Origin: Cutibacterium acnes
Lineage (GTDB): Bacteria; Actinomycetota; Actinomycetes; Propionibacteriales; Propionibacteriaceae
Direction: 5' to 3'
NCBI RefSeq assembly: GCF_003030305.1
Contig: NZ_CP023676.1
Coordinates: 1,364,001 to 1,428,000 of the forward strand
DNA: 64,000 nt
Both the position numbers and the translations under genes were made by a program. Of the stretch, positions 1 through 25,277 are shown in pieces. Each line of letters starts with the position of its first letter. Position 1 is the first letter of the stretch. Below the pieces are notes generated by a model, which was not told where the DNA came from, did no database searches, and saw only the letters and a program-made list of their open reading frames with translations.

Positions 1-32
1 TTTCGAGCAGCTGGTAAGTATTCAGAGGGGCA

Positions 33-597: not shown

Positions 598-620
598 GGC
601 GACGCACCTAGTACGTCGCC
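598..620 (-). terminator. Hairpin downstream of the partition operon
   Basis: A 7-bp inverted repeat (GGCGACG and CGTCGCC) separated by 9 nt lies just past the end of the ribbon-helix-helix gene on the minus strand. There is no clear T tract, so it may be a weak terminator or a chance repeat. Confidence 0.35.
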
Positions 621-646
621 AGCCTCGTACCCTATGTCTCGTCCCC

Positions 647-904
647 TTACTGGTAGGGGTCGTAAGGGAAGCCGTAAGTGTGTTCCAGGGCCTTGCGCAA
701 AAGGTCGTTCATAGTCGTGTGCTCCTCGACGGCCCTCATCTTCAGCGCCGTGTGGGTAGCGGTGGGTAGCTTGACGTTGAACGCGGTGATCGGAGTCTTG
801 GCTGACTGAAACGTTTCAGAGACACTAGCTCCCTGACTTGCCGCCATCCGACCGGTGTAACGGCTGGCCTTGTCTGCGGCGGTGGGCTTGCGGTTCTTAC
901 TCAC
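647..904 (-). CDS. Ribbon-helix-helix partner of ParA (centromere-binding candidate)
   Basis: Small 85-residue protein with a basic, flexible N-terminus and a C-terminal ribbon-helix-helix signature (ITAFNVKLPTATHTALKMRA, then a helix with MNDLLRKALEHTYG). Its start overlaps the stop of the upstream parA gene by 4 nt, so the two are translationally coupled. In plasmid partition systems of this type (ParA with ParG, omega or other RHH proteins) the small partner binds the centromere and represses the operon. The phased ATC repeats upstream of parA at 1508-1534 fit such a binding site. The RHH fold and operon are seen; the role in DNA segregation is inferred from ParA linkage. Confidence 0.65.
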   Translation of the reverse strand: MSKNRKPTAADKASRYTGRMAASQGASVSETFQSAKTPITAFNVKLPTATHTALKMRAVEEHTTMNDLLRKALEHTYGFPYDPYQ

Positions 905-1485
905 TTCAGCATCTCCTGGATCTGGGCAGCAACCTGGGCGAACTCTCCTAGATCTGTTGGCCGGGTCCCGATGGCTTGCCGATAGGCGACCCGCCGATGA
1001 ACTTCCGCGTCGAGAACGTCTAGGCCCTCGACAGCGGCGGCCCCCTCATAGGCGTCACGGTATTGCCTGGTCCAATCGGCCTTGTTGAAGAGCAAGGCCC
1101 GGCGCGTGCCGTGGGCCACCTGGTAGGTCATCAACGCTCGATCCATATCCAGGTCCCCCGACTCAGTCGGGATAATAACCACATCAGCAACCTCGAGGGC
1201 TGCGGTAACCGTCTGAGAGTCACCAGGAGGAGTGTCAATAAAGACCAAGTCAGCATCGATGTCACGGCAACGCCTGACAATGGGGGCATTAGCCGGGCGG
1301 ACCTCAAAATTCAGCCGGTCACCGGTCTCAAAAGCATCAGTAGCCCAAGACGTCGCCGATCCTTGCGGATCGGCATCCAACAAGACGACCCGATCCTGGC
1401 AAGACAGGGCCGTAGCCAGGTAGACCGCCGTGGTCGTCTTCCCAACCCCACCCTTGGTGTTAACAACAGAAATAACCCGTGACAT
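901..1485 (-). CDS. parA: ParA-family partition ATPase
   Basis: About 194 residues, a short ParA/MinD-type P-loop ATPase without an N-terminal HTH (type Ib size). The deviant Walker A motif with its signature lysine is at the N-terminus (VNTKGGVGKTTTAVYLA), followed by the DADPQGSAT switch and the Walker B region VFIDTPPG. The ATG at 1485 places the P-loop directly after the start, as is usual; the longer open frame upstream crosses the repeat region and is unlikely. Such ATPases move plasmids on the nucleoid together with a small DNA-binding partner, here the coupled RHH gene. Its presence in an apparently chromosomal region suggests an integrated plasmid or episome. Confidence 0.85.
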   Translation of the reverse strand: MSRVISVVNTKGGVGKTTTAVYLATALSCQDRVVLLDADPQGSATSWATDAFETGDRLNFEVRPANAPIVRRCRDIDADLVFIDTPPGDSQTVTAALEVADVVIIPTESGDLDMDRALMTYQVAHGTRRALLFNKADWTRQYRDAYEGAAAVEGLDVLDAEVHRRVAYRQAIGTRPTDLGEFAQVAAQIQEMLK

Positions 1486-1507
1486 ATCTGCATCATTACA
1501 CACATGT

Positions 1508-1534
1508 ATCAGTGCATCAATACATCTATGTATC
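1508..1534. promoter_or_regulatory. Phased ATC repeats, putative partition-site operator
   Basis: The trinucleotide ATC occurs at 1508, 1516, 1524 and 1532, exactly 8 bp apart, embedded in similar octamers (gtATCAgt, gcATCAat, acATCtat, gtATCggc). It lies 23 bp upstream of the parA start. Short tandem repeats of this kind are typical operators or centromeres for ribbon-helix-helix partition proteins (compare the ATCAC heptads bound by omega). Assignment to the neighbouring RHH protein is inferred. Confidence 0.5.
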
Positions 1535-1788
1535 GGCGTGGTGTGAGAAGAAAACCCAGCCCACATACAACGATCCCCCAGCCGACACCAACTCCGAGAT
1601 CTTATGAAGAGACAACTCCCACAGGAGCTGCACCCCTCACAGGAGCCCACCAGATCCGCGTCAAGACCCCACACCCCTTACCAGCGCACCCTTCGTGACC
1701 AGCTCGAGACTCGACCCGATCAAGACACCGCGTAAGCGATGAGGTCACGGCCTGAACCACACCCTCAGCCTCAAGCCTGCACTCACAG

Positions 1789-1826: not shown

Positions 1827-1858
1827 GTCTTGCCATGCGCCTAGACCAAGGCTGCGGG

Positions 1859-2680: not shown

Positions 2681-2689
2681 ATTAATTTA

Positions 2690-3684: not shown

Positions 3685-3698
3685 CTCGCCCTCCTCAT

Positions 3699-3884: not shown

Positions 3885-4287
3885 TCAGTTAAGACACCTC
3901 AAATAATCGGTCTCGATATATTCGGCCCATTCAACTTCAACACAGCCCACACCAACACCAAAACGCTTCACACTGCCATTAAGCAGCATATTCAGACCAC
4001 CCTCGAAACAGCACCGTGCCACTGACACTAACAACCCCTTGAGGACACTCTTCAAAGGAAACCATAGCCATTAATAGCACCTCCTTAACCACACCTTTAT
4101 AAAAACGGGCGCGGTAAACCGAGGAAAGTTCTAAGAGCTACCCCTGTTCGACAAAGCATTCCGAAACAACCGTACGATTATGGTCCAATCTGGTGGAAGG
4201 ACTCGCGGTAGCTTCTTCCAAGCATAATTTCCAGAAAGCCGCCCGGTACAGGATCTGTCTGGGAACCATCAAACGGACTGTCCATCA
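3885..4287. other. Intergenic stretch without a recognised gene
   Basis: About 400 bp between the toxin remnant and the end of the MFS transporter gene. I see no conserved reading frame. The open plus-strand frames here have no family resemblance and no ribosome binding site. Confidence 0.4.
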
Positions 4288-5532
4288 TCATTTGCAACGC
4301 AGCGACAGAGCAGCCAGGGCTGTCAAAGCAATCCAGTACATGAGGCCAAGATGGGCATGCTCCAACTGGCTGTAGACGGACAGTCCTATCCAAACACCGA
4401 CCGTCTCACCTACAGCAGAGGTGAGCTGCCTCATGTTCATCGATTCCACGACAGGTCGGCCCTCGGTGAGGTTAGCAAAAGCAACATTAAGAATTGGCGT
4501 GAATACCGTCTCCCCCAACGAAAAGATAAACACCCCACAGAATACAAGGACTACGCCAAGCAACCCCCTTGAAGCATTAAAGAATAGCATCGATATGCCA
4601 AGAGTACACACTCCTGACATCATGATCTTCTGGACTTTCACTCCAATTTTTAGCTGGCGTTCCACAAGCAAAGATATCGGAATTTGAATCAACACGACAA
4701 GCACTCCATTAGTTGTATAGAACAGCGACCTCATCATAGAACTTGTCGCTATTGCAGAAAAGACTAGGGAAAAGCTTGAAAAGAATTGCCCTATCAGGAT
4801 ACTGCCTATCAGCGCTATAATCGTTATTTTTCTCGCATCAGCCGTCCTGAATAATTCACGAAAAATTTTGATCCCCATCGGCGGCCTCAGGGAACCTTCG
4901 CTCATCATCACGCCTTTCGGGGCAGCCATTGGCGCTAATATCGCAGCGATAAAGAGCGCTACACTGACTCCTAATAGAAACTGCTCATAAATATTTCTAT
5001 CAAGTATCATATTACCGAGTATAGGACCTACCGCCGCAGTGCAATTCGCGACAACTTGAATGACAGCGAAACCGCGGTTTTGGGAAGCTCTATCAGGAGT
5101 TGCTAGCGCTATAAAGCTTCGCACACCAGTACCATTAACACTGAACCCTAGGCCCGCAGCGCCCAGAGCAGCAATTATCGCATAGGGGTTTGCCGTAAGC
5201 GCCACAACAGCGTAAGAAACCGAGATCAGAGTAAGAGCAATTCTTACGCAACTTCGCACTGATAAACGGTGAAGTGGCGAAGCAAGAAATAGAGCACCAC
5301 CACGAGTCATCAGTGTAAGCACGCTTACCGACCCCGCGATGAGCCGTTCCTGCGTACTTCCAAATTTCAATGTAAGCAATAGAGGGAGGACCGGTAGCAA
5401 CGCAAAGTAAGATGATTGGCTGAGAACTTGGTCTGCCATAATGAGGTTGAATACACGCCCAGGAAGCCGCGATTTTGACGGTTTACTTCGTGTCCCTATT
5501 GTCTTCACTGGCACCCCTAGACTTGAGTCCAA
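4288..5532 (-). CDS. MFS transporter, putative product exporter
   Basis: About 414 residues with some 10-12 hydrophobic segments and little else, the profile of a major facilitator superfamily drug/siderophore-type exporter. Examples are the helices around LSQSSYFALLPVLPLLLTL, AIIAALGAAGLGFSVNGTG and LLGVVLVFCGVFIFSLGETV. The longest frame starts with TTG at 5532. A GTG a few codons later, preceded by AGGGG, may be the real start. It lies on the same strand as the NRPS operon but is separated from the ATP-grasp gene by about 560 bp with an IS630-family relic, so it probably has its own promoter. Export of, or immunity to, the cluster's product is the natural inference; the substrate is unknown. 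Confidence 0.65.
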   Translation of the reverse strand: MDSSLGVPVKTIGTRSKPSKSRLPGRVFNLIMADQVLSQSSYFALLPVLPLLLTLKFGSTQERLIAGSVSVLTLMTRGGALFLASPLHRLSVRSCVRIALTLISVSYAVVALTANPYAIIAALGAAGLGFSVNGTGVRSFIALATPDRASQNRGFAVIQVVANCTAAVGPILGNMILDRNIYEQFLLGVSVALFIAAILAPMAAPKGVMMSEGSLRPPMGIKIFRELFRTADARKITIIALIGSILIGQFFSSFSLVFSAIATSSMMRSLFYTTNGVLVVLIQIPISLLVERQLKIGVKVQKIMMSGVCTLGISMLFFNASRGLLGVVLVFCGVFIFSLGETVFTPILNVAFANLTEGRPVVESMNMRQLTSAVGETVGVWIGLSVYSQLEHAHLGLMYWIALTALAALSLRCK

Positions 5533-5689
5533 TCAACGACGCTAACAGCTTCTTTAATCGCTTCATCACAAACTTTATCTTCCCGCACGAATCTTCGAGT
5601 TTAATGCTCATATTGGTATGACATATTCGATGCATAAAGCTTTCTCTAGTGAATATTAGACATTATATCTATGCTCTTGGTTCATGCGA

Positions 5690-6060
5690 AGATTATCGGT
5701 CGTTCCAGAGGTTGGCGAAGGGTGCGAATAGTGGTGCTGTCTTCACTGGTTCCGATCATTCACATAGCTGATGGCCTGTCGGTCTATGACGCCAGAACAC
5801 ACCTCGACCGAGAGCTCAACCACGAGCCGCTGTGGGAATAGTGAACACGGAACTCATATTAGCAGCGACCCAATCACGCATCTCAACATGTTTGTGCGTA
5901 GAGAAATTATTCATAATTAGGTGCAATCCTTCCTAGAGGAGACAGAAAACCCTTGATGGCGATATTGGACGTTGACAACTCCAGCCAGGCGACTGACGAC
6001 GATGTTTAAAGCTGCGAACAAGGTTATCGTAGCGTGCCGCATAATATAGTCATGGTGTGT
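5690..6060 (-). mobile_element. IS630-family transposase relic
   Basis: No intact frame, but translating the minus strand gives LHLIMNNFSTHKHVEMRDWV. After a stop and frameshift it gives SVEVCSGVIDRQAIS. These match the DDE-region signatures of IS630-type transposases (L-I-x-D-N-[YF]-x-T-H-K-H and VE-x-F-x-G-I-x-x-RQAI). The catalytic aspartate before the second Asn is itself lost (MNN). Terminal repeats were not identified. The relic fills most of the gap between the ATP-grasp gene and the MFS gene. Confidence 0.6.
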
Positions 6061-6096
6061 GTTTCACTGCTCGCCGTAAAATCTACTGCCACGCAA

Positions 6097-7404
6097 CTAA
6101 TCTCTGCTTACAGGAGCGACACGCACTGCGCAAGCATTAGCAGCGCGATCCAATAACTGAGTCACTGTATGCTCGTCATTTCCACGGGCAACAATAGCAG
6201 CTACCCTTGCATGCGAACCATTTACTGCATGTGCTACTTCTCCTGGGAAGCATTCCCAATACAAATCGATTTCTTCAGGGACACTGTCATAGAGCGAAAC
6301 CTCTGATACCACTCCAGGCGAGGCTTCGATAAACTTTGAAGCAGCACACTGGGTTATCTCAGGCAAAGGATGGAGAGGAAGTCCACACAAAGAATCAATC
6401 AGATTTCCATAGTAGTCGATCCCTGGTCGCACAGCTGACACAAGATCCGGCGCAATAAAATCTCCGCCTTGACGCACGTGAAATTCTCCCCATACAATTT
6501 TTTTCTCAGGCGTGACCCAAAATTCAACATGCAGATTTCCACACTCAATTCTAAGCGCATTTACACAGCTTTGAAGCTGTTCTTCAAATTCAAGTTTGCT
6601 GGATATACTGTTCAGATCAGCTGGCTGGATATGACCAATTTCAACGAAATCTTCGTTGGTTGTTTTTGCTGTGGTTGTGTAGATGCATACCCGTCCATCT
6701 ATAGCAATACCCTCAACCGAGTACTCAATACCCGTGATAAACTCTTCTAAGCAGTAATTCCCCTCGAAAACGACAGCATCAAGTCCAGAAGTATCTTCAA
6801 CATTTAAGATGTGTCTAACGCCAACACTGCCCATTCCTATGGATGGCTTAACAATCCAGCCTCTTGGGCTATCGGTTGGTTTTTCAACGAAAGCGCCTGA
6901 TGCATCACTAAATTGTAGGCACCCATCAGAAGTCACTCCAACAATACGCAAGCTTTGTGGCTGATAGATACCAGCTTTTCGAAGCGCATCGCGGCACGCT
7001 GGTTTATCTTGGATACGTTCAATACAATCAGCAGTATTTCTAGCAACACCAATAGCTTCAGCTAAAAGACTATTCTGCAACTGATAATTTTCGCGCAGTG
7101 CCGTTGAAAGAGCTACCCTTCCAGGGCATCGGGTTTCAATTTCTGTCGCTATTTTAGCGATCTCATCAGCATCTAAGCTTCTCCTGTAGGGTCCGGATAT
7201 TCTAATTAAACAATCGACAGAAATCGGCGGAATTTTGTTCTTTAGTTCTTCCTCGAAATCTACGCCACATATCATTATGTGGCGCTTCTGGCACGCTTCA
7301 TAGAAGCTTTTAAACCAATGCGTTGAGGCATGAGATCCAGATGTGGTGACACCTACCAAAACCGCCCATTTTCTTTCAGCCACCACGCTGTCACGAGAAA
7401 ACAT
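6097..7404 (-). CDS. ATP-grasp carboxylate-amine ligase
   Basis: 435 residues with the ATP-grasp layout. There is a poorly conserved N-terminal domain. The ATP-binding core has the lysine and glycine-rich loop in GWIVKPSIGMGSVGVRHI. The metal-binding end has EFWVTPEKKIVWGEFHVRQG followed by GDF. The usual E-x-N-x-R motif reads E-F-H-V-R, an Asn to His change. Enzymes of this type join a carboxylate, activated as an acyl phosphate, to an amine. In dapdiamide synthesis such a ligase (DdaF) uses 2,3-diaminopropionate, which this cluster should make. The gene overlaps the thioesterase by 14 nt at the end of the operon. It may carry out the peptide-bond or amide step that the defective condensation domain cannot. 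That role is inference. Confidence 0.75.
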   Translation of the reverse strand: MFSRDSVVAERKWAVLVGVTTSGSHASTHWFKSFYEACQKRHIMICGVDFEEELKNKIPPISVDCLIRISGPYRRSLDADEIAKIATEIETRCPGRVALSTALRENYQLQNSLLAEAIGVARNTADCIERIQDKPACRDALRKAGIYQPQSLRIVGVTSDGCLQFSDASGAFVEKPTDSPRGWIVKPSIGMGSVGVRHILNVEDTSGLDAVVFEGNYCLEEFITGIEYSVEGIAIDGRVCIYTTTAKTTNEDFVEIGHIQPADLNSISSKLEFEEQLQSCVNALRIECGNLHVEFWVTPEKKIVWGEFHVRQGGDFIAPDLVSAVRPGIDYYGNLIDSLCGLPLHPLPEITQCAASKFIEASPGVVSEVSLYDSVPEEIDLYWECFPGEVAHAVNGSHARVAAIVARGNDEHTVTQLLDRAANACAVRVAPVSRD

Positions 7405-8104
7405 TTAACCATTCCCTTCTTCCAAAACCTTCATGTGCATAATGCCCTCCGGTCACTTCGATCAATCTGTACGTCTCACTCGTAGCTTCACGCCATTGGA
7501 CGGCCTCTTCGGAAGAAACAATCTTATCATCAATAGCGGAAACACAGGTTATAGGGACATGAATCTGCTTAAGTTGGTTACCACAACACGATTCCGCCAG
7601 TAAGAGATCATCGAGCGTAGGGCGAACAAACAGATCATCGGATTCATCGGAGTTCAGAATACTTTTAGGAGTCAATCCGTAGCTACGCATACGCTGCCGT
7701 GCACGTTCCAAGTTCCATCCCTCTCGCTCCCCCCTGTAACTCTTAGGACTTTGCCCACATAAGGCAACCAAACGAGTCGCGAAGATTCCGTCATTTTCTA
7801 AAATATTAGCAGCTACGAACGACAACATCGCGCCAAAGCTAACCCCGGCGAGTATCAACGGCCCAGTCGGAATTTCGAACGATGATCGAAAGTTGCTGAC
7901 GAACTCTCCGATGGTTCTGATGCCGGGTTCAAGTAATCGTTGACCCCTGCCAGGCGGGCAGTAACCCCAAACTGTAGTATCCCCCTCTAAGACAGACATC
8001 GATTGAAAGGCAGGAGCTCCGGCACCCGTAGGAGGGAATATCAGGACTGTGGAGCAACAAGAGGTAGTTGCTGAACTAATACGCTGCCAAACTTCCGGAT
8101 TCAA
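7391..8104 (-). CDS. Type II thioesterase of the NRPS cluster
   Basis: 237 residues, alpha/beta-hydrolase fold. The nucleophile elbow GVSFG puts the catalytic serine at about residue 89. The early strand and oxyanion region is VLIFPPTGAGAPAFQSMS, and the catalytic His is in GGHYAHEGF near the C-terminus, with an acid before it in SAIDDKIVS. This is the stand-alone GrsT-type editing thioesterase that removes misprimed or stalled acyl groups from carrier proteins. As neither NRPS carries its own TE domain, it may also release the product. Start and stop overlap both neighbours (4 nt with the A-T gene, 14 nt with the ATP-grasp gene), so the operon is tightly coupled. Confidence 0.85.
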   Translation of the reverse strand: MNPEVWQRISSATTSCCSTVLIFPPTGAGAPAFQSMSVLEGDTTVWGYCPPGRGQRLLEPGIRTIGEFVSNFRSSFEIPTGPLILAGVSFGAMLSFVAANILENDGIFATRLVALCGQSPKSYRGEREGWNLERARQRMRSYGLTPKSILNSDESDDLFVRPTLDDLLLAESCCGNQLKQIHVPITCVSAIDDKIVSSEEAVQWREATSETYRLIEVTGGHYAHEGFGRREWLNVFS

Positions 8105-9840
8105 TGCTCACGCTCCTCAACAGGCATCAGCAAGCTGACCAAGCAGGAAATCGTTGGATTGGAATAGAAGTTCCGCAAGGGGACACGAACACCAAACTGT
8201 TTACCGATGGCGGTCAAAAGCTGAACAGCGCGCAACGAATTTCCACCTGCGGAGAAAAAATCACGATCTTCACCGTGGCTCTTCTTTCCAAGAACCATAT
8301 CCCAGATATTTTGCACTTGATCGTGAACACTGTTACGCTGCATTTGTCCTTGGGATATTCTGTCGTGATCGTAGAGTTCGCTCTGTGCTACCAACTTCAG
8401 ACACTCGCACCGATCTATTTTTCCCGTTCTTGATCTAGGAACATTCTGCGTAGTTACGATCTTGAGAGGAATCATATAGGAAGGTAGAAATTCGGCAAGA
8501 CGAGAAGTCGTGACCTGAGACTCCCATTCGCGTGGAATCACGAGCGCCAAAACTCCACCACTGCCTTGGTGATAGACTGCACCACATTGTTTCGTGGAGT
8601 TAGCAACTCGAGCTGCAGCTCTTTCAACCTCTTCCAAGTGGATCTTGTGTCCAGCGATATTTACCGCATTATCGAGCCTGCCAACCAGTGAAAGGACACC
8701 ATCCTTGATGATTCCCAGATCACCAGTCCGTATTTCACGTTGTCCACTTCCAAGTGTAAAGAACGCATCGTCCCCTAGACTGAGTTGACCATTAACGATA
8801 TATCCATCGGCCACTGGGGCACCCTGTACGCATATCTGTCCCTCTTCCCCAGATAACTTTTCGTTACCTTTCATGTCCCGAATTACAATTTTCGTAGCAC
8901 AGATCGGCTTACCAAGGGGGATAGGGTCCGGAATGCTACCTGACCGAGAAACCTCGAAACTTGTCGTGTTAGCCGACGTCTCAGTAGCTCCGTAAAGATT
9001 CACTACTCGCGCACGGGGCGCGATCTCGAAGAATTGACGGACAACGCTTGCCATCAGCTGGTCTGCACTGCTGCACACTAGACGGAGCTGAGGAAGAGTG
9101 CTCCCTTGCTCTGTGGCAATGTCACACAAGCTGGCTAGTGCTGGAGGTGTCGTAAAAAGGTGGGTAGCACCACTAGACGCAAGTCGATCGAACATCACGT
9201 CAGGTCTGCTACGCTCGATATTAGTAATCAAAACACCAGTAACACCTGCCAGCAGAGTCCCCAACACTTCCCAAAATGAAGCAACAAATGAGAGTGGCTT
9301 CTGGACGACCACAAGATCGCTTGACTCGTAAGGGTAGGCGTTCCACATCCACGTGATACGGTTCCGCACCGCATCCATTCCTACTTGGACGGCTTTCGGA
9401 ACTCCTTCTGATCCAGATGTGAAATATAAGAATTTTGATTTATCGCTCCAGGTCAAGGACCTGACATCACTTATCCAGTTCCCTGCAAAAATTGCTTCTT
9501 CCGCTGTTGAGTCGTCGATCAGAACCGTTTTAGACCCAAGATTAATAATCATGTCCCGCTCTCGTGAAGCCGGACTATTCAACGGAATCCAAGCAATCTT
9601 GACAGGCAACGTCACAGCTGCTATTACAAGGGCAACAGATTTAGCAGATAAATCAAGTCGAGCAGCAAAAGTAACGCCCTCACTTTGCTCTCGGTTGAAC
9701 CACCTTCTCCACGCAAGGATATTTTTAACTAGCTGTTCCCATGAGCATTGCTCGCCGGCGGGACCGGTCAGACAGACATCACCTGGTTTCTGAATGACTA
9801 TATTACGAAACCGCTCCAGCAAATCATGTGACGGTTGCAT
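8101..9840 (-). CDS. NRPS adenylation-thiolation (A-T) protein
   Basis: 579 residues. The adenylation domain spans about 1-490: core A3 is FLYFTSGSEGVPKAV, A5 is NLYGATETS, A7 is RTGDLG, A8 is GRLDNAVNIAGHKIHLEEVE and A10 is PRSRTGKIDR with the catalytic lysine. A carrier domain of about 70 residues has its phosphopantetheine serine at about 535 (FFSAGGNSLRAVQ). The A4 motif reads SFVASFWEV, so the residue equivalent to GrsA Asp235, which binds the alpha-amino group, is Val. My by-eye pocket reading is V-A-W-T-V-S-L-A-N. The substrate is therefore probably not an ordinary alpha-amino acid; a beta-amino, hydroxy, keto or other carboxylic acid is more likely. It should act with the upstream A-T-C protein. 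No MbtH-like gene is present. Confidence 0.85.
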   Translation of the reverse strand: MQPSHDLLERFRNIVIQKPGDVCLTGPAGEQCSWEQLVKNILAWRRWFNREQSEGVTFAARLDLSAKSVALVIAAVTLPVKIAWIPLNSPASRERDMIINLGSKTVLIDDSTAEEAIFAGNWISDVRSLTWSDKSKFLYFTSGSEGVPKAVQVGMDAVRNRITWMWNAYPYESSDLVVVQKPLSFVASFWEVLGTLLAGVTGVLITNIERSRPDVMFDRLASSGATHLFTTPPALASLCDIATEQGSTLPQLRLVCSSADQLMASVVRQFFEIAPRARVVNLYGATETSANTTSFEVSRSGSIPDPIPLGKPICATKIVIRDMKGNEKLSGEEGQICVQGAPVADGYIVNGQLSLGDDAFFTLGSGQREIRTGDLGIIKDGVLSLVGRLDNAVNIAGHKIHLEEVERAAARVANSTKQCGAVYHQGSGGVLALVIPREWESQVTTSRLAEFLPSYMIPLKIVTTQNVPRSRTGKIDRCECLKLVAQSELYDHDRISQGQMQRNSVHDQVQNIWDMVLGKKSHGEDRDFFSAGGNSLRAVQLLTAIGKQFGVRVPLRNFYSNPTISCLVSLLMPVEEREH

Positions 9841-9862
9841 CTTTATCTCCCTTCATACTACA

Positions 9863-12800
9863 TCAATAGCTTTTGAGCATTGTTATCTGAGATGTATCAC
9901 AATCATTAAGGGCAGTTTTTATGGCATTAGCGACAGTCGTCTTCCCTGAGAGCCAATCAGAGGTAAGGAACCACGCTGTAAGAGCCAGTACTTTATTAGC
10001 GCGTTCTGGTGTCACATACGCCACTTTATAAGCAAGTTGCAGGGTATAATCTTCGCCGTGTCGCTGGATATAAAGAGACGCATCATATTTCGTAAACCCA
10101 GTATTCAATTCAGTTAAGTGAAGGCTTCGATCACCATCCCAAAACTCCAGAGACGGGTAAGTAAGCATATTCACCATCGTGCTAAACAATGGATCCTCGT
10201 TCGTGTGATCAGCGAACTCAGAAACAACCTTGCTAAATACGCTGTCACCGAATGAGACAGCTTCAGTCACATTAGATATCATCGAACGTACTGTGTCACT
10301 AATTTTCTTTTCGACATCTATACGAGTTCGTATTGCAATCATGTTAAGCATCAGAGTTGGGACGCCAATTTCATACTCATCGTTTCGCCCTGCTACTGGT
10401 GCACCGACAACAAAATCATGTTGGTCAGAGACCGCTGCCAACGCTAACGAATAAGCAGCCACGAATACTGCAAATGGGCTTGTACTCAATGCATGCGCAG
10501 TGGAACGGATCTCAGCAGTCGCTTCGTCATCTAGAGAGACCTCTATAACAGAAGCAGCGTAGGGATCACACGAATTATTTAATGTATCGCGCAATGGGAA
10601 ACATGATTTCACTCCATCGAGTGATTTTGACCAAAATTTTCGTGCTTCAGCGGATATCTCTTTAGGTTTCGACAGATGTTGGAAATATTCTAAAACTGAA
10701 GTCATAGCTGTCTTGACTTCGATTTCCTGATCGTCCATGTTACGACACTTAAAAAGAGAAATTAACTGTTCCATGAACTTCATTGCTCCCCAGCCATCGA
10801 TAAGGATCTCGTTCATGGTCAAAACGAACCAGGTAGAATATCCATTTATACGGATCTCGTCCACGGCGATAGCGGGACCTTCCTCCAGGTTAAAAGGGAC
10901 TGCTGCTTTCATCCAACAGATCTCACGAGCCTCTTGCGCAGAGGCCACTTCGTGTATTGAGATTTCATCCATATCGATAGCAGAGATAGGAAACGTCTGT
11001 GTAAATCTCCCAGTTGAATCCACTCCAAACTTCGCCATTAGCTGTGGATTCGCCCGTAATGCCTGGCCAAGAGCACGACGGATTCTATCGGTGTTCGGCC
11101 CAGCGCATTCTAACAATATCTGATAATTATAGTAAGGGCTTTCAGGCTCCAGTAGCCATTGAAAATAAATTCCTTGCTGAGCCGGATTCATATCACACGT
11201 CAAAGGAATTTTGACGTCATCGAAGCGGGAAGGAGATCTTTTTGCAGAGGTCGATTTCTTCGGAGATATCTGTTGTGCTTGATATTCTTTTGCTAGAGAG
11301 CCTAACGTATATGAAGAAAGCAAATCTCGTACTCTTACGTAAGATCCTCGTGAGCGGACAATATTGGCTAGCTGAATGGCTCGAAGAGAATCGCCTCCGG
11401 ATTCGATGAATGTTAGTTCTGGATTCACAGGAGTGCCAAGCACGTCCTGAACGAGAAGAATGAAAGAGTCCTGATTCTGTTCAACTCTACCGGGAATGGA
11501 TCCCTCTCTTGACTCTTGAATATCATTCAGTAACAGTTCCCCAGCACGGCGCTCTAATAACTTAATATCTACCTTGCCATTTGAAGTAGTGGGAATATCA
11601 GTAACCTTTATCCAACGGGATGGACACATCACTCTCGGGAGACTGCTTTTCGCGCGATTATTAAGCATTTTGGGAGTAACTAAACAATCGGCGCGAGGAA
11701 GATAGAATGCGGCCAAGCTAGCGTCTCCTTGGCGAAGAAACTGGTGCGTTGTTTCTCGGAGCACCATTGCGCGACTTTCACGGACACGAGGGTGGAATTT
11801 AACCACTACAACGTCTTCAAGCTCTGGGATTTCTCGAAGGATACGATTTTCGATTTCACCGGGCTCAATCCGTACTCCACTAATTTTTATCTGTCGATCA
11901 GCGCGGCCATCGTAAACCAGTTGACCATCCGCTCGCTGATGAACGAGATCTCCGGTGCGGTATATTCGGAATGGGTATCCGTCAATCCTGGCAAATGCTT
12001 GAGCGGTTTTATCTGGGCTTCCGATATAACCTAAACCCACACAAAGACCAGCAACAAAAAGCTCACCTTGCGCTCCAGGAGGAACTGGACGCCAAGTACC
12101 TTCTGCATACTCTAGGACGTATAAAGACGTATTAGGTATTGGAATTCCGATGGGAACTTCACCTGAGTTAAGCGATTCGCCATCCACGATCGCATGCGTT
12201 ACATCGTCAGAACATTCTGTAGGACCATACGCATTAATTAACGGGACAGACGGGAATTTTTCTGCCCAGTCTTTAGCCAACCGAAGGGGTAATTCTTCGC
12301 CAGTCACCAGAACATACTCAAGCCCAGAGAAAGACACGCTTGGCCCAATTTCGTGAATAAGTTCACGAAATACTGTCGGAACTAGTTCAATGTGTGTTAT
12401 ATGTTTCTCTTTCAGTAAAGAAAAAAGCTCATGTGGATCCTGTGAAATACCGTTGGGGACGATACGTACTGCACCGCCTACCAGTAAGGCCGAGCAAAAT
12501 TGCCAAATGGATACATCAAAGGTGGTGGGTGCCGTCTGGGCCACAACTGAGTCAGCACCAAGATGAAGGAGATGGGCTTTGCTATGCAAGTGATTCATCA
12601 TGCCCATATGCGCGATTAGCGCACCTTTCGGTTCACCTGTGCTACCCGAGGTGAAAAAGCAGTAGCTTGGAGCGTTGAAAGGATCATCCACACGCTCCAG
12701 AAATGTGACTCCTAATGGTGCCTTTGCTTCCGTTACGTGCGAGGTATTTTCAGTGAAAATGGCGGCCGCGTTCGTGATCGTCTTAATATGTTTACGACGA

Positions 12801-13159
12801 GCCTCTGGCCACTGAGGATCAATGGGTATATAGATGGCACCTACGGCACTACAAGCTAGGATATCGACAAGACATTCGATACCGCGCGAGTGCTCTGAAA
12901 TGACTACTCTCCCAAAGGCATGTTTCTTTTCCAAGAGATAGGCTCGATTGTTAACTCGATTCAATAACATTTCGTAGGTGATTTCTTCACCATGAATATC
13001 TATTACGGCAACGTGATGTGAAGTGATCTGGGCCCATTCAACTAAATACGAGTAGAGTGTGCGTTCTAAAGGCCAGTCGACGTTTTCCCCGACCAGTGCA
13101 CTCCGGGTAGCGAGCAAGCTCAACCCATTTTTTTCCAAACTTTTGGTAAGGTTTATCAC
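9863..13159 (-). CDS. NRPS with A-T-C domains
   Basis: 1098 residues. The adenylation domain covers about 25-555 (A3 CFFTSGSTGEPKGALIAH, A5 NAYGPTECSDD, A7 YRTGDLVHQRADG, A10 PTTSNGKVDIK). A carrier domain follows with its serine at about 591 (IESGGDSLRAIQL). A condensation-type domain runs from about 655 to the end. The A pocket read against GrsA PheA is D-V-W-E-V-G-A-D-D. Asp235 is present, so the substrate is an alpha-amino acid, and several acidic residues suggest a basic side chain such as diaminopropionate. The condensation signature HHxxxDG reads NEILIDG (residues 783-789), so both histidines are gone while the Asp-Gly and later motifs (VVGAPVAGRNDE, LMLNMIAIRT) remain. It is the third gene of the Dap operon. 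Confidence 0.88.
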   Translation of the reverse strand: MINLTKSLEKNGLSLLATRSALVGENVDWPLERTLYSYLVEWAQITSHHVAVIDIHGEEITYEMLLNRVNNRAYLLEKKHAFGRVVISEHSRGIECLVDILACSAVGAIYIPIDPQWPEARRKHIKTITNAAAIFTENTSHVTEAKAPLGVTFLERVDDPFNAPSYCFFTSGSTGEPKGALIAHMGMMNHLHSKAHLLHLGADSVVAQTAPTTFDVSIWQFCSALLVGGAVRIVPNGISQDPHELFSLLKEKHITHIELVPTVFRELIHEIGPSVSFSGLEYVLVTGEELPLRLAKDWAEKFPSVPLINAYGPTECSDDVTHAIVDGESLNSGEVPIGIPIPNTSLYVLEYAEGTWRPVPPGAQGELFVAGLCVGLGYIGSPDKTAQAFARIDGYPFRIYRTGDLVHQRADGQLVYDGRADRQIKISGVRIEPGEIENRILREIPELEDVVVVKFHPRVRESRAMVLRETTHQFLRQGDASLAAFYLPRADCLVTPKMLNNRAKSSLPRVMCPSRWIKVTDIPTTSNGKVDIKLLERRAGELLLNDIQESREGSIPGRVEQNQDSFILLVQDVLGTPVNPELTFIESGGDSLRAIQLANIVRSRGSYVRVRDLLSSYTLGSLAKEYQAQQISPKKSTSAKRSPSRFDDVKIPLTCDMNPAQQGIYFQWLLEPESPYYNYQILLECAGPNTDRIRRALGQALRANPQLMAKFGVDSTGRFTQTFPISAIDMDEISIHEVASAQEAREICWMKAAVPFNLEEGPAIAVDEIRINGYSTWFVLTMNEILIDGWGAMKFMEQLISLFKCRNMDDQEIEVKTAMTSVLEYFQHLSKPKEISAEARKFWSKSLDGVKSCFPLRDTLNNSCDPYAASVIEVSLDDEATAEIRSTAHALSTSPFAVFVAAYSLALAAVSDQHDFVVGAPVAGRNDEYEIGVPTLMLNMIAIRTRIDVEKKISDTVRSMISNVTEAVSFGDSVFSKVVSEFADHTNEDPLFSTMVNMLTYPSLEFWDGDRSLHLTELNTGFTKYDASLYIQRHGEDYTLQLAYKVAYVTPERANKVLALTAWFLTSDWLSGKTTVANAIKTALNDCDTSQITMLKSY

Positions 13160-13166
13160 TCTATAT

Positions 13167-14156
13167 TCACCGTTTCATGTCTCCGTGAAAGTCTGGAACA
13201 CGTAATCCATCGCCGGATATTTGAACGTGCTCGTACAAGCTTTGAGCAACAGCAAGGTCCAAAATTCCTAAACCAAAAGGAGAGAATACGGTTGGATGAT
13301 CAGGGTCAAGCTGCTTCTCAGAGCATATGAATTCCGCCAGTGTGCCTGTGATGAAATTTCGATTTCCGTTCAATTTTTCGAGGAGGTGGGGTGTAGTGTT
13401 TGCCTTCAGGCAATGTTCAACATCATCAAACACGTTATTAGCCGTTCGAATGGTCTCAGGGTGTAAATCACGAAGCGAGATATTGAGAACGAGCTGGTTC
13501 GGTTGGAAACGTACACTCATCGGCACATAAGGAGTTCCGGCGCTGGTGGCTAATAGCACGAGATCACAGCCAAGAGCTTCTTCTAAACTGGCTACCGAAC
13601 ACTCGGGGCCGTGGCGAGTGACTATACGTGCGACTAATTCACTATTTAAGTCGTGAATTTTCACTGGAACCGCTGTCGTGTATAGCGACTTAATAAAATG
13701 TAAAGTTGTCTGTGCGATAGGGCCACTGCCTACTACACCGATACTCGTAGGAGCACCGTGAAGAACTCGAACTGCAAGCGCAGCCGAGGCAGCTGTACGA
13801 GCCGCACTAATGCGGCTGGCCTCGATGAACGCATAAGCATAGCCGTTATCTGTGTTATTTAGCACGATGACTGCTGAAGCTCTTTGTAGCCCATGATCAA
13901 CATTCTCAGGAAAGCTAGAAATCCATTTAATTCCCGACACACAGGTTTGATCATTGATATAAGATGGCAACGCTATGATACGATCTCGTGGAGTATCTGG
14001 AAACCGAAGAAAATAACTATCGGGACATACTGTATTTCCAGCGTGATGTGCTCGATAAACACGTTCAACAAGATCGATGAGAAACGACTCTCTGCCTTTT
14101 AAAAATGTTTCGACAAGCTTGGCGTCTATAATTAGCATTTCACCATATTTCGTCAT
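13167..14156 (-). CDS. sbnB: SbnB-like dehydrogenase for 2,3-diaminopropionate synthesis
   Basis: 329 residues of the ornithine cyclodeaminase/mu-crystallin family, with the dinucleotide-binding glycine loop in GVVGSGPIAQTTLHFIKSL around the middle. The length and its place directly behind an SbnA-like gene match staphylococcal SbnB (about 336 residues). SbnB oxidatively cleaves N-(1-amino-1-carboxy-2-ethyl)glutamate with NAD to L-2,3-diaminopropionate and 2-oxoglutarate. The start codon follows the upstream stop without a gap, and the NRPS begins 7 bp downstream. The alternative, a true ornithine cyclodeaminase or amino acid dehydrogenase, is less likely given the SbnA-SbnI context. The gene symbol is by homology only. 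Confidence 0.82.
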   Translation of the reverse strand: MTKYGEMLIIDAKLVETFLKGRESFLIDLVERVYRAHHAGNTVCPDSYFLRFPDTPRDRIIALPSYINDQTCVSGIKWISSFPENVDHGLQRASAVIVLNNTDNGYAYAFIEASRISAARTAASAALAVRVLHGAPTSIGVVGSGPIAQTTLHFIKSLYTTAVPVKIHDLNSELVARIVTRHGPECSVASLEEALGCDLVLLATSAGTPYVPMSVRFQPNQLVLNISLRDLHPETIRTANNVFDDVEHCLKANTTPHLLEKLNGNRNFITGTLAEFICSEKQLDPDHPTVFSPFGLGILDLAVAQSLYEHVQISGDGLRVPDFHGDMKR

Positions 14157-15158
14157 TTAAATACCTTCCGTTTCTTTCACTTCGTGCGCAACAGGACGAA
14201 TGGCATAATTAAATGCTGATTCCCCAAAGTTTTCCATAACCCAATCGTCGTTATATACTCCATCCAGATACCTTTCACCAAGATCCGGCGCAATAATGAC
14301 AACGCGGCTTCCCTCGGGAATTTTATCTCGAAGAGCATCAAAAGCTGCTAGCACAGTGCCAGTCGATCCGCCCGGTAAAAATCCTTCTACCTGCGCAATG
14401 CGTCGGCACTGTCTCACGGTATCGATTTCATCAATATAATACCGTTTTAGAGGAAATTTTTCGTCAAAGATTGGTGGCTTTACACTAGCGCCTAGACCAG
14501 GGATATATCGCCGCGAAGGAGCTCCTCCGAAAGTCACTGAACCAGTGCTATCAATAGCACAAACTTTGGTGCATGAACCACGCTTCATGACAGCCCTAGA
14601 TACACCCATAAGCGTGCCAGTGGTACCAGCACCTACAAATAGGTAATCAGGATCTCCTAACTCTTCGACGATCGCTCTATATGTCTTCTTGGAATGAACC
14701 TCAGGATTGGCTACATTTTCGTACTGGTTTGTCCATAAAGGCCCTCCTGGCATCTCTACTAATTCGCGAACTCTAGCAAGTCGCGTCCCAAGAAATCCGC
14801 CCGCTGCATCCAATGATTGAACAACTTCCACTTCCGCGCCCAGTGCACGCATATGCGAAATCGACCTTGAATTTGCATTCACATCTGTAACAATTGTTAA
14901 TTTGTATCCTCGGCGCGCACATACACCGGAAAGTGCTATGCCTAAACTCCCAGAAGAAGACTCTACGACCCAACCTCCTGGCTGAAGACCATGAAGCTTT
15001 TCTAAGCTATCGACGAGTGCAATAGCCGTCTTGAGTTTTACGGAACCAGCAGTGTTTAAACCTTCTAATTTTGCGTAAACATCATGTTTAGGAAATGAAT
15101 TTTTCAAGCGGACAAATTGAGAGTTTTCATCTAGTTCTTCAATAGATCCTGCAATCAT
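14157..15158 (-). CDS. sbnA: SbnA-like PLP enzyme for 2,3-diaminopropionate synthesis
   Basis: 333 residues, cysteine synthase (fold type II PLP) family. The Schiff-base lysine is at about residue 41 in LNTAGSVKLKTA, and the substrate loop is VVESSSGSLGIALSG. The phosphate-binding loop is VGAGTTGTLMG and the C-terminal serine/glycine loop is LPGGSTGTV. SbnA condenses O-phospho-L-serine with L-glutamate to N-(1-amino-1-carboxy-2-ethyl)glutamate, the substrate of SbnB. It is the first gene of the minus-strand operon, and the sequence upstream is shared with the divergent PPTase gene. The SbnI-like gene at 16269-16973 would supply O-phosphoserine. A plain O-acetylserine sulfhydrylase is a possible but weaker reading. 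Confidence 0.83.
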   Translation of the reverse strand: MIAGSIEELDENSQFVRLKNSFPKHDVYAKLEGLNTAGSVKLKTAIALVDSLEKLHGLQPGGWVVESSSGSLGIALSGVCARRGYKLTIVTDVNANSRSISHMRALGAEVEVVQSLDAAGGFLGTRLARVRELVEMPGGPLWTNQYENVANPEVHSKKTYRAIVEELGDPDYLFVGAGTTGTLMGVSRAVMKRGSCTKVCAIDSTGSVTFGGAPSRRYIPGLGASVKPPIFDEKFPLKRYYIDEIDTVRQCRRIAQVEGFLPGGSTGTVLAAFDALRDKIPEGSRVVIIAPDLGERYLDGVYNDDWVMENFGESAFNYAIRPVAHEVKETEGI

Positions 15159-15444
15159 TTATGTGCTCCTACTGCGCATGACATGCCATCGGAAGTTTTC
15201 ATAACATACAAGCAAATTATAATGAGGAGTCTTGTACAGGCTATGGGCGTTATTAGAAGAGGTTTAGGCAAGAAGTTACGGATCTTGATCATGTTGATCC
15301 TGCCTACGAATGGCGTTGATAGAATGACAGAGACAACAACACATATGCGTGACCTCCCTAGTGATACACGCTGAAGTAACTTGTCACCTACTTCATGAGC
15401 TAGTCTATCTCCTTATAGGACCACATAAAAGAGAGGACCAAAAA
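15159..15444. promoter_or_regulatory. Divergent promoter region between the Dap/NRPS operon and the PPTase gene
   Basis: About 285 bp, AT-rich, with no gene that I can support. It must hold the minus-strand promoter of the sbnA-like operon and a plus-strand promoter for the PPTase gene. A TATAAT hexamer at 15218-15223 on the plus strand is a possible -10 box, but I see no good -35 at 17 bp. No iron-box or other operator was recognised. Confidence 0.4.
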
Positions 15445-16173
15445 TTGATCTACATCTCTCGTGTGTCACTCGATACATTCCCCAAGAGTGCCTTGCCACA
15501 GCTGATGGAAAGAGCTAGTCCTGAACGACGAGATAGAGCACGAAGATACGTGCGAATCGATGACTGCTTGCGCTGCCTCATAGCTGACGAACTCCGGGCC
15601 TATTCATTGAAGCTTGATTACAAGGTGCCAGTACAGTCAGAGGTATCGAAGAACGCTTTCGGGAAGCCGCTACTAGCAAACTGCGATGGTCCTAAGTTCA
15701 ACTTGTCGCACGATGGGAAGTGGATTGTCTGTGCCACAAGCCCACATCCTGTAGGCGTAGACGTCGAGGCAGTCGCTGAGCCAGGTTTAGCGGTAGTCTC
15801 GAACGATTTTTCAGTGGAAGAAGTGGAGGCCTTGCGGACAACCGCTACGGCTCCCCTCTCCATCGCTCGAGCGATGATCTGGACACGGAAGGAGGCATAC
15901 CTCAAATATCTGGGGTTGGGTCTCACTGTTCAGTTAGATTCTTTTTCAGTAATAGATCAAACCTTGCTGTCGCCAGCTGAAGGGATGACAGACGGTATTC
16001 AGTTTTATAGTTGGTGCGATGCCGATAACTCGCATGTGATCTCTGTCTGTGGCCACGGCGAGGAAGTCGTCATCTCTTGCGTCAGCGGGCAAGAATTACT
16101 AGATGGACTGCCACCATCTCACTGTTCAGAAGAACCTCAAGAGCAACTTCGTTGGTTGCCCAATCTTAGTTAA
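15445..16173 (+). CDS. Sfp-type 4'-phosphopantetheinyl transferase
   Basis: About 242 residues from the TTG at 15445, chosen because GAGAGGA lies 7 nt upstream and because the protein then begins at the Sfp-like strand (IYISRVSLD). An in-frame ATG at 15349 would add 32 residues without family support. It shows the two PPTase signatures, VGVDVEAV (magnesium and CoA binding) and WTRKEAYLKYLG, and the substrate motif FNLSHDGKWIVC. The enzyme moves phosphopantetheine from CoA to the serine of the two NRPS carrier domains, making them active. It is divergent from the biosynthetic operon and converges on the SbnI-like gene. A cluster-borne PPTase supports a self-contained, transferred pathway. Confidence 0.87.
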   Translation: MIYISRVSLDTFPKSALPQLMERASPERRDRARRYVRIDDCLRCLIADELRAYSLKLDYKVPVQSEVSKNAFGKPLLANCDGPKFNLSHDGKWIVCATSPHPVGVDVEAVAEPGLAVVSNDFSVEEVEALRTTATAPLSIARAMIWTRKEAYLKYLGLGLTVQLDSFSVIDQTLLSPAEGMTDGIQFYSWCDADNSHVISVCGHGEEVVISCVSGQELLDGLPPSHCSEEPQEQLRWLPNLS

Positions 16174-16268
16174 GATCATTTTGTAATTATCAAAATTCCA
16201 AGTCGCCTCGAGAAAAGCATTAACAGAGATCATATCTCACCAGGAGAGATGCGGCTTAAATATCTCTT

Positions 16269-16973
16269 TCAATCCTTCATGACAGCTAGGCTCTTCACCT
16301 CGTCACGATCAAGTACTGGATCACTCATGATAGATTTTTCGCGCTCAGCAATGCATCGTGGGCACTTTTTGAAAAAAACTGATCCGAAACGAGTTATACC
16401 TGCTGGTAGTGGCCCGTAATTAGTAGCTATCTTGGCTATAGCCCCCCATGAAGGAAGAACCCATTCCACAGACTGTCCTTGAGCAGGTACATCCGCTGAA
16501 CGTCGATAATAAAATCCACCCAAGAGCTCCGCAAGATCCCAATAAGCATAAAATAGATCCGAGGCCAAATCGCTCTTCGAATGGACTTCTTGTCGCAAGT
16601 CACCATCGTGTAAAATAGCGATAGTGGATCCCCGATCCTCCCCATGCACCAATGGTGGCATGAAAGAAAATTTCCGAGTATTATAGACATGTACCCAACC
16701 AGATACGGATTGCTCTGGAGCCATCGGGACAACATGTGCTGGTATGGAATCGAATCCTAAATAAAAAGCTGCTCGACACCTGTGGGCTCCATCAAGGATG
16801 ATGTAAGGTTCCCCTTGGGCTACGTGGATGCTTTCTCGTAATGCTTCATGTTCTAGCAATTTTGTAAGACGCTTGAGACGCAAAGTCTCACATTCCTCAT
16901 GCCATACGAGTTGGTTTAGCGGAAGATACGATGATAACTCACAGCTACTACTAATTTTCATCAATTTCATCAA
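16269..16973 (-). CDS. sbnI: SbnI-like ParB-fold protein, putative free serine kinase
   Basis: 234 residues with a ParB/sulfiredoxin-like N-terminal domain (LPLNQLVWHEECETLRLKRL, then a nucleotide-binding stretch ILDGAHRCRAAFYLGFDSIP). The rest resembles SbnI of the staphyloferrin B locus, including the closing LPAGITRF segment (SbnI has a near-identical VPAGVTRF). SbnI makes O-phospho-L-serine from serine and ATP, feeding SbnA; in Staphylococcus it also binds heme and DNA as a regulator. The acidic residue expected to be catalytic is present (HEECET). It is not in the main operon but transcribed from its own start, convergent with the PPTase gene. Plasmid-partition ParB is rejected, because the protein lacks an HTH and a ParB C-terminus. 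Confidence 0.75.
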   Translation of the reverse strand: MMKLMKISSSCELSSYLPLNQLVWHEECETLRLKRLTKLLEHEALRESIHVAQGEPYIILDGAHRCRAAFYLGFDSIPAHVVPMAPEQSVSGWVHVYNTRKFSFMPPLVHGEDRGSTIAILHDGDLRQEVHSKSDLASDLFYAYWDLAELLGGFYYRRSADVPAQGQSVEWVLPSWGAIAKIATNYGPLPAGITRFGSVFFKKCPRCIAEREKSIMSDPVLDRDEVKSLAVMKD

Positions 16974-17885
16974 CTCTCAATGCACTATTAATGGCAACCT
17001 GGTCTTGAGATATCCGATCTATGACTCGGACCACTTTTTCATTGAGTAAGACAGTTTCTAGTATGTTTACTACGAATAAGGAAAACTTTCTTCAATTTTA
17101 CCTTAGGGAAAGATATCTCATAGTTCCGCATCACGACTATTGAAATTTGCAGATCGACCGACTTCTATAACCGATAAATTATGGGCGACTACAGCGATGT
17201 CTGTCGAGGCACCAACGATGACTCTCGACAGCCCTGGACCTGCACTATCTCTTTTTTGGGGGGCGCGGGATGGAACCCATCGCATTGGCAATGCCTGACA
17301 GATCATGCTCTTCCGATCCTTGTCCATACTTAACTGATGACCGCAGAAGCACAGATGCGGTAGGCATGGGCGGTGTCCGGATCATCCCCCCTTGGGAGCC
17401 AAGAGACCGTCGTTGATCACTACGTCGAACAAGGCCTGCAGGATAGGTTTACAAAACCGATCCGCCGCTACCACCAGTTCCGACACAAGCTTACGTACCA
17501 TTGTTGATGCCATATCGCTCCTTCACAGAAGCGTTCCGGGGGGCTCGCAGACGGCATTGGCACCTTGGCACCGATGTCCGTGAATCCACAACGGAACCTG
17601 AAACTGCCCCACACGGTCTGATGCTCCGACTTTCGTCAGCTTCCCCAGATCATCCGGGGCATCAATCCATTACCAGATTGACACTTAGCACTGTACCCTC
17701 ACCAAGACCACACCAGCATCGAGGACGGCGGGAGAGAGGCGAACCCGCCACCACACGATGCACAAATACAAAAATACATAGGCATCATGATGCTCTTGGG
17801 CATCTCGCATACCCCCGTACGGTGCCCAAACTCAATCCCTACGCAAAGCTCGCAGGCCTAAGTCTGCCCATCAAAATCATGGCTT
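16974..17885. other. Junction region between the NRPS cluster and the replication module
   Basis: About 900 bp with no gene that I recognise. A 43-codon minus-strand frame at 17382-17513 has a good AAGGAG and starts MASTMVRKLVSELVVAADRF, but it has no family resemblance and ends abruptly. A T6-G6 run lies near 17251-17262. The mixture of short broken frames suggests decayed insertion-sequence or plasmid DNA at the edge of the cluster. Confidence 0.4.
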
Positions 17886-25170: not shown

Positions 25171-25277
25171 CGAGACTCTTATCCAACCGCGCGACAACCC
25201 GCACGGCAGAGCGGTCGACCTCACTACACGCCACCCCTCGACGCGCCCGAAAACGGTCGTTTTCGAACGCTCGGCTT

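Follow-up and report, generated by a model that had tools for sequence, protein, structure and literature searches.

A 64,000-nucleotide stretch of the Cutibacterium acnes genome (NZ_CP023676.1, positions 1,364,001–1,428,000 of a single contig of 2,495,001 bases; hereafter the window) carries nine genes at 4288–16973. We consider it rather probable that they encode a dapdiamide-like pathway for a small pseudopeptide containing L-2,3-diaminopropionate (Dap). At the level of sequence, this reading is supported by the gene content, the Dap biosynthesis genes, a Dap-type code in the first adenylation (A) domain, unusual sites in the condensation (C) domain and the second A domain, and synteny with a cluster in Microbacterium. 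An earlier annotation made from the DNA letters (the original prediction) had proposed a Dap-using nonribosomal peptide synthetase (NRPS) and ATP-grasp cluster, with two units of A and thiolation (T) domains, in a skin-type commensal; our results support that outline. The nine genes that it named were recovered at the same positions, and Pfam and NCBIfam agreed with it gene by gene, the SbnI-like protein being only a distant relative.

Gene content and Dap supply

The nine open reading frames (ORFs; Table 1) contain no internal stops. Eight lie on the minus strand, and the phosphopantetheinyl transferase (PPTase) gene lies on the plus strand. One NRPS ORF matched the Pfam models AMP-binding and PP-binding and the other AMP-binding, PP-binding and Condensation; further matches among the nine were MFS_1, ATP-grasp_4, Thioesterase, OCD_Mu_crystall, PALP and ACPS. 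The SbnI-like ORF had no Pfam match. The condensation domain of the A-T-C protein is the only one found in the whole genome (E ≤ 0.001). The DNA is AT-rich, as originally noticed, with a GC content of 0.466 over 4288–16973 vs. 0.587 over 25,267–64,000 of the window, beyond the island described below.

SbnA and SbnB, two members of the predicted Dap trio, were confirmed by scores above their NCBIfam equivalog cut-offs (392.9 bits vs. 349.95 for SbnA and 402.4 bits vs. 326.9 for SbnB). The third member failed the SbnI equivalog (26.1 bits vs. a cut-off of 350) and stands only as a distant relative. Among proteins of solved structure, SbnI gives its best matches (E 1.4e-4 to 6.3e-4), the HE and DGxHR motifs align, and a 26% identical counterpart lies inside an SbnA/SbnB locus of another Cutibacterium genome (L045 of G464, about 187–18132). 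L045 is a separate cluster, in which SbnI-like, SbnA and SbnB genes neighbor FabD-like, adenylating, MocR/MppQ-like aminotransferase, GcvT-like, carrier-protein and ketosynthase genes. The SbnA/SbnB loci of other Propionibacteriaceae are different clusters.

Specificity code of the A1 domain

The pocket code of A1, read by alignment, is DVWELTADDK, and that of the Microbacterium A1 is DVWEMTADDK. We compared A-domain codes from loci around SbnB genes with codes from control actinomycete NRPS loci. The SbnB loci were taken from an alignment scan of about 85,000 genomes, in which the best 80 of 468 relatives were kept; they extend up to 10 kb on each side, some ending at contig edges. The 44 controls were the 30 best-scoring small loci and 14 NRPS-rich stretches picked by hand away from known SbnB genes. 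One stretch of a G107 contig near an SbnB gene was omitted, 6 of the 30 small loci lie inside large ones, so that a few control codes were counted twice, and one control genome (G008, locus L172) carries SbnB genes on a different contig. Copies of the cluster itself were dropped before counting (L066 from the 80 SbnB loci and L177 from the controls). Readable A-domain rows amounted to 79 of 93 for the SbnB loci and 85 of 110 for the controls (84 after removal of the own copy); they were read through a profile built from only four A domains, and distant rows may be misread.

Codes could be read in 23 SbnB loci, 42 codes in all (both totals counted by hand). A code of the type D[IV]W[EQ]xTxDD occurred once in each of 14 of these loci, making up 14 of the 42 codes, and in 2 of 84 control codes. 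Fisher's test gave p = 2.7e-6, or 5.5e-6 without the Microbacterium sister. These values are too small because both sets contain some loci that are related to each other or overlap, and the test overstates independence where SbnB loci resemble each other in codes and layout (e.g., L117/L119, L099/L113, and L134/L139); the contrast is still large. The variant with Glu at the fourth place accounted for 10 of 42 codes vs. none of the 84 in the controls. Because this code type is enriched beside SbnA/SbnB genes, A1 most likely takes Dap, and the Dap use proposed originally is thereby strengthened. The main alternative substrate would be 2,4-diaminobutyrate (Dab), but the cluster holds Dap genes. 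In the relevant part of a code survey (PMC12283262), the identity of two Dap codes to Dab codes is given as 80%. A text search of papers for the signature codes gave no match.

An NRPS cluster on a plasmid of Kitasatospora sp. NBC_00039 (L062) has DIWQATCDDK as one of its A codes. It also contains a kinase gene, a gene of a lyase family and a fusion gene, in which an SbnA-like pyridoxal phosphate enzyme precedes an ATP-grasp part.

The A2 pocket and the C domain

The A2 pocket, VAWFCSLANK, is identical at 10 of 10 positions in Microbacterium, though the A-T proteins are 47% identical. Its position 235 is Val; nearly all A domains for alpha-amino acids have Asp there. Among the 149 non-copy codes read, three start with VAW, namely that of Microbacterium and those of two rhizobial synthetases (VAWFTSFSNK). 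Thirteen others also lack Asp235; acyl ligases or misread rows probably account for several of them.

The C domain reads NExxxDG in place of HHxxxDG (MNEILIDGW, protein residues 782–790), and so does its Microbacterium counterpart. Glu occupies the place of the catalytic His; the solved C domains of the top alignments have His at both altered places. We collected 154 C-domain rows, of which 13 were gapped. Among the 141 scored, 109 had the HH motif and 11 had Glu at the second motif place: eight copies of the Cutibacterium gene, one Microbacterium protein and two rhizobial proteins. All 11 come from proteins or operons that also have a VAW-type A domain, an association that covers two kinds of operon (the window and rhizobial C domains are 22.5% identical). 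HH is not universal, since NH (9 rows), HA (5), SH (2) and single cases of other departures were seen as well. The pairing of a Glu-motif C domain with a VAW-type A domain suggests, from the motifs, a coupled change of the acceptor unit and the catalytic residue. The "two modules at most" of the original prediction may thus hold in number but not in kind, A2 being without Asp235 and the C domain without HHxxxDG. Neither HExxxDG nor NExxxDG was matched in a text search of papers.

The two rhizobial synthetases (plasmids of Sinorhizobium terangae and Mesorhizobium huakuii; L146 and L147) are two-module NRPSs that share with the locus the A-T-C-A-T order, the VAW-type second A domain and Glu at the second His of the first C domain (HExxxDA). 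They differ from it in being a single protein with an extra C domain and in their first code, DIWQSVHDGK, and sbnAB is not annotated inside the stretches fetched. Both (L146 5725–12186; L147 5725–12174) adjoin a MATE exporter. In the Streptomyces sbnAB clusters L099, L113, L134, L139, and L150, the C domain upstream of the Dap-type A domain has Ala in place of the second His (HAxxxDG); a Ser-type A domain (DVWHFSLVDK) precedes it in four of these clusters.

A sister cluster in Microbacterium

Matches to all of SbnA, SbnB, A-T-C, A-T, thioesterase (TE), ATP-grasp and MFS proteins were found in at least two of the best 80 of 468 SbnB loci, a lower bound because of the limited extent of the loci. 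One of these is in Microbacterium sp. CBA3102 (NZ_CP042412.1, L067; 45–64% protein identity), with the common order sbnA-sbnB-ATC-AT-TE-ATPgrasp-(second ATP-grasp)-MFS-PPTase. It shares both NRPS architectures with the locus, as well as the A2 pocket and NExxxDG. The second ATP-grasp gene (426 aa), between the first ATP-grasp gene and the MFS gene, is present only in Microbacterium, where the PPTase gene lies downstream of the MFS gene. An SbnI-like gene was not detected in the Microbacterium cluster by a search run without a positive control.

The other full match, 99.8% identical over 15.4 kb, is a contig of a metagenome-assembled genome labeled Corynebacterium (L066, CALUBS010000040.1), and is probably stray C. 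acnes or other Cutibacterium DNA in that bin. The Streptomyces loci L099 and L113 matched six of the seven genes, without the TE, at 23–53% identity and in a different layout. Within Cutibacterium, the full-length A-T-C protein was found in two of nine genomes; four more gave weak partial matches only, which we took as other adenylating enzymes.

Release, ligation, and export genes

The thioesterase shows a GVSFG serine, an Asp and a GGH histidine when inspected by eye. The ATP-grasp protein shows weak similarity to PylC, to the L-amino acid ligase BL00235 and to the ATP-grasp portion of PRK02186. Matches to it at E 1e-20 or better occurred in 4 of 394 actinomycete genomes, the window's own included. 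Distant ATP-grasps in actinobacteria and on plasmids sit in other clusters, one of which (L060) has a related MFS gene adjoining the ATP-grasp gene; no viral contig carrying the ATP-grasp was confirmed. The second ATP-grasp of Microbacterium scored 47.7 bits against the DdaF model (cut-off 840). The genome has two PPTase-type genes, that of the cluster and another within an open frame of 138 aa.

In both named Cutibacterium modestum plasmid copies of the locus, a stop codon interrupts the mechanical MFS ORF at residue 3, and the rest of the covered sequence is open (the start of the NZ_CP017041.1 record cuts the MFS gene). The MFS gene therefore probably starts downstream of 5532; the likely site is at about 5439, close to residue 32, which corresponds to the beginning of the Microbacterium protein.

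The 564-bp gap between the MFS and ATP-grasp genes encodes a short peptide weakly resembling an IS630-type (DDE_3) transposase (E 0.01, below the gathering score). No remnant of the second ATP-grasp was found within it, and a search without a positive control found no second copy of the Microbacterium-type second ATP-grasp elsewhere in the genome. The Cutibacterium lineage probably lost one ligase, perhaps by an insertion-sequence event; a less likely alternative is that Microbacterium gained it.

Table 1. Features of the window, in window coordinates.
Feature	Position	Strand	Basis or remark
Left 19-bp island boundary repeat CGAAAACGGTGGTTTTCGA, last 6 bases in window	1..6	+	13 bases left of window
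ParA-type ATPase of the plasmid-derived island	901..1674	-	Profile match
MFS exporter (mechanical ORF)	4288..5532	-	Pfam; Microbacterium 54% identity
Geneless gap; Microbacterium has the second ATP-grasp gene at the equivalent place	5533..6096	.	Cluster comparison
ATP-grasp ligase, likely to couple an amino acid to the released acid	6097..7404	-	Pfam ATP-grasp_4; weak family matches
Stand-alone thioesterase	7391..8104	-	Pfam; motifs by eye; Microbacterium 47% identity
NRPS A2-T2; pocket VAWFCSLANK, without Asp235	8101..9840	-	Pfam; alignments
NRPS A1-T1-C; A1 pocket DVWELTADDK (Dap-type), C with NExxxDG	9863..13159	-	Pfam; alignments
SbnB, N-(1-amino-1-carboxyl-2-ethyl)-glutamic acid (ACEGA) to L-2,3-diaminopropionate and 2-oxoglutarate	13167..14156	-	NCBIfam equivalog; Microbacterium 61% identity
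SbnA, O-phosphoserine and glutamate to ACEGA	14157..15158	-	NCBIfam equivalog; Microbacterium 64% identity
Sfp-type PPTase, predicted to prime T1 and T2	15349..16173	+	Pfam ACPS
Distant SbnI-like protein, likely L-serine kinase giving O-phospho-L-serine	16269..16973	-	Weak SbnI match; aligned motifs
Right 19-bp island boundary repeat CGAAAACGGTCGTTTTCGA	25248..25266	+	Repeat search

Comparison with dapdiamide and staphyloferrin B

In the parts that treat it, the literature on the dapdiamide pathway (PMC12568646, PMC12451424, PMC3535389) offers the best parallel for the logic of the locus. The dapdiamide/herbicolin I clusters of Pantoea (ddaA-I) likewise have sbnA/sbnB, a stand-alone A-T protein, a hydrolase, an ATP-grasp protein and an exporter, DdaI being described as a predicted efflux pump in the passage concerned (PMC3535389). 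The dapdiamide-type cluster of Pantoea vagans, on plasmid pPag2, runs in parallel order as sbnA-sbnB-oxygenase-A-T-hydrolase-ATPgrasp, followed by DdaG and an AsnB-type protein, and its A-T protein has the same length (579 aa) as that of the locus. The oxygenase DdaC, the fumarate ligase DdaG and the AsnB-type amidotransferase are peculiar to dapdiamide, whereas the additional A-T-C protein is peculiar to the locus. In P. vagans the annotation splits the ATP-grasp into a protein of 284 aa and a short one, and the ATP-grasp of the locus is not recognizably DdaF. We do not claim membership of the dapdiamide clusters, because the nine genes lack DdaG, DdaH and DdaC and because of this ATP-grasp difference. 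The original appeal to ATP-grasp ligases that join Dap in dapdiamide synthesis was sound as logic, but it does not extend to a recognizable DdaF homolog in the locus.

The staphyloferrin B cluster (sbnA-I) has SbnA, SbnB and SbnI in common with the locus, the last only as a distant relative, and uses IucA/IucC-type synthetases of the NRPS-independent siderophore (NIS) kind where the locus has an NRPS. No NIS synthetase is present among the nine ORFs, and staphyloferrin B is ruled out as the product, as originally concluded.

Proposed pathway and its alternatives

In the dapdiamide-like pathway, the SbnI-like protein would convert serine to O-phosphoserine, from which SbnA and SbnB would make L-Dap. 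The PPTase would prime T1 and T2, A1 would load Dap on T1, and the C domain would join Dap to X, the unit brought to T2 by A2. Since Asp235 is missing from A2, an ordinary alpha-amino acid is improbable as X. A two-unit acid would be released by the thioesterase and extended with an amino acid by the ATP-grasp ligase. Export of the product by the MFS protein may thereby protect the producer. The identity of X, the direction of condensation, the ATP-grasp addition, the order of release and ligation, and the biological role are what we infer in this scheme. By analogy, the product would most likely serve as an antimetabolite or antibiotic among skin bacteria. It is conceivable, if rather doubtful, that A-T-C(xE)-A(VAW)-T is a distinct NRPS unit of actinobacteria and rhizobia, in which the C domain works with Glu for the catalytic His on a carrier-bound unit other than an alpha-amino acid and creates a linkage that differs from the usual alpha-peptide bond. 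With such a synthetase, a common skin commensal would make a new class of Dap pseudopeptide antimetabolite, spread by plasmid between Cutibacterium species.

Several observations weigh against the dapdiamide-like pathway. The Dap-type code is absent in 9 of the 23 SbnB loci with readable codes and present in two control loci. The C domain may be inactive, and an X without an amine would leave the direction of condensation ambiguous. DdaF was not detected by the window ATP-grasp at E 1e-3, which also had no DdaF model match at 1e-3; DdaD is closer to A1 than to A2; and no DdaG-, DdaH- or DdaC-like gene for the fumaramoyl/epoxy group occurs among the nine ORFs. No report of a product was found. 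In addition, PPA1287-1291, part of the published counterpart of the locus (see below), are called genes of a peptide-based iron chelator in the pertinent part of a transcriptome paper (PMC3848588).

The original prediction offered a metallophore as one option; on this reading, the Dap peptide would bind iron or some other metal, and its synthesis would be induced under metal limitation. A supplementary caption of the same paper reports PPA1287-1291 and feoAB as altered after removal of potassium salts containing traces of iron; phosphate was removed in that experiment as well (PMC3848588). Staphyloferrin B, itself, contains Dap. However, the nine genes include no catechol, hydroxamate or citrate ligand genes, and no siderophore uptake gene was found among them or in a scan of 13 ORFs flanking the Microbacterium cluster, where ABC genes of oligopeptide and amino-acid type do occur (the window's island genes outside the nine were partly scanned). 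DtxR-type boxes, searched with the general consensus, numbered none in the window at ≤3 mismatches, where 0.38 would be expected by chance, so that this absence is a weak argument. Elsewhere in the genome there were three sites at ≤2 mismatches and none for the reversed control pattern; two of the three lie just upstream of what we take, by eye, to be a haem-binding HtaA-like protein and an iron-binding lipoprotein, and the third precedes another protein. A half-site-like TTAGGCAAG without a second half was seen by eye in the sbnA-PPTase intergenic region, and promoter- and terminator-like sites were at chance level. A siderophore driven by DtxR was not supported, as no DtxR/IdeR box lies at the operon promoter and the genome control was positive elsewhere. 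The metallophore reading is weakened by these results, and we regard it as unlikely, the iron-chelator wording in print notwithstanding.

We regard as similarly improbable a peptide made by the NRPS alone. This would require a C domain that works in spite of NExxxDG, an unusual beta-amino or hydroxy acid as X, a thioesterase with a purely editing role and an ATP-grasp protein that makes or modifies X instead of lengthening the product. Stand-alone thioesterases often edit, and A2 shares 6 of 10 pocket residues with VDWVISLADK, which we take to be the beta-alanine code (it was not found in the literature searched); A2 lacks, however, both acidic residues of that code. The ATP-grasp matches to the ligase families named above also speak against this peptide, as does the lack among the nine of any release domain other than the thioesterase. 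Still less probable is a decayed remnant, i.e., a Cutibacterium cluster that no longer makes the full product after losing the second ATP-grasp. The gap with its weak transposase remnant lies where Microbacterium has that gene, and the ratio of non-synonymous to synonymous change (dN/dS) between the window and the plasmid-type contig of genome G506 is about 1 for SbnB and the SbnI-like gene (on 4 and 5 changes). Yet all nine genes are open in both sequences, which differ by 57 synonymous and 46 non-synonymous changes, and dN/dS is 0.10–0.44 in seven of the nine, several on few changes. These ratios, a rough guide, indicate purifying selection on most of the cluster. Expression signals in the relevant passages of PMC3124536 and PMC3848588 also speak against decay.

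An integrated plasmid island

Copies of the locus that are 99% identical are carried by C. modestum plasmids, and their public annotation names SbnA and SbnB. The G506 contig is 99.8% identical over 14.7 kb to one of these plasmids (NZ_CP017041.1). On the C. modestum plasmid, the sequence of window 24577–25266 continues directly into window 1–582; the chromosomal island is therefore a circularly permuted copy of part of the plasmid. Most of the plasmid is absent near the window 582–635 junction. The island (window 1–25266 plus 13 bases to the left) is flanked by two copies of a 19-bp near-palindrome, CGAAAACGGTNGTTTTCGA, of which the C. modestum plasmid has a single copy, CGAAAACGGCCGTTTACGA. 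A search allowing one mismatch placed the near-palindrome at exactly two sites in the genome, the island ends, which lie 25,260 bp from each other. The G506 plasmid-type contig has it once, and it did not occur in seven other Cutibacterium genomes. These findings support the published guess of a plasmid insertion and supply its boundary sites.

Earlier record of the locus

The locus is very probably the NRPS cluster PPA1284-PPA1292 of C. acnes "island-like region 2", likened to surfactin genes in the section of PMC3124536 devoted to it. The gene set fits the printed description of PPA1278-PPA1304, which includes a ParA gene and a counterpart in 'P. humerusii'. According to the same section, the region is absent from strain SK137, most tabulated strains are positive by both PCRs and two type III strains by one of two, and the region is up in strain KPA171202 vs. 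266. The NRPS island is also named in PMC1489950, PMC3848858, and PMC3316620, and together these four accounts, in the passages on the region, mention an NRPS island, a ParA gene and a possible plasmid insertion. One C. acnes NRPS family was enriched in the external naris, as stated in the part of PMC8549736 that treats it; that family would be the NRPS of the locus. The cluster is thus already in print, contrary to its treatment as unrecorded in the original prediction.

In those passages the cluster is surfactin-like or simply an NRPS, with nothing on Dap, on clusters outside Cutibacterium or on the C and A2 sites. No Dap assignment for it was found in the part of the open-licence literature matches that was examined. 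A surfactin-like lipopeptide needs a lipo-initiating C domain and several elongation modules; we rejected this candidate because the locus has no more than two A-T units and a single C domain, which forms the C-terminal part of the A-T-C protein. New here are the Dap-type A1 code, the Microbacterium sister with its extra ATP-grasp, the unusual C/A2 pair and the island boundary repeats.

The locus encodes the sole NRPS with a C domain found in the genome of a common skin bacterium, and it has been in print as an orphan island for about two decades. The likely building block, the dapdiamide-like logic, the Microbacterium sister and the C/A pair make its product searchable, and the locus is a case for asking whether a C domain without the catalytic histidine works.

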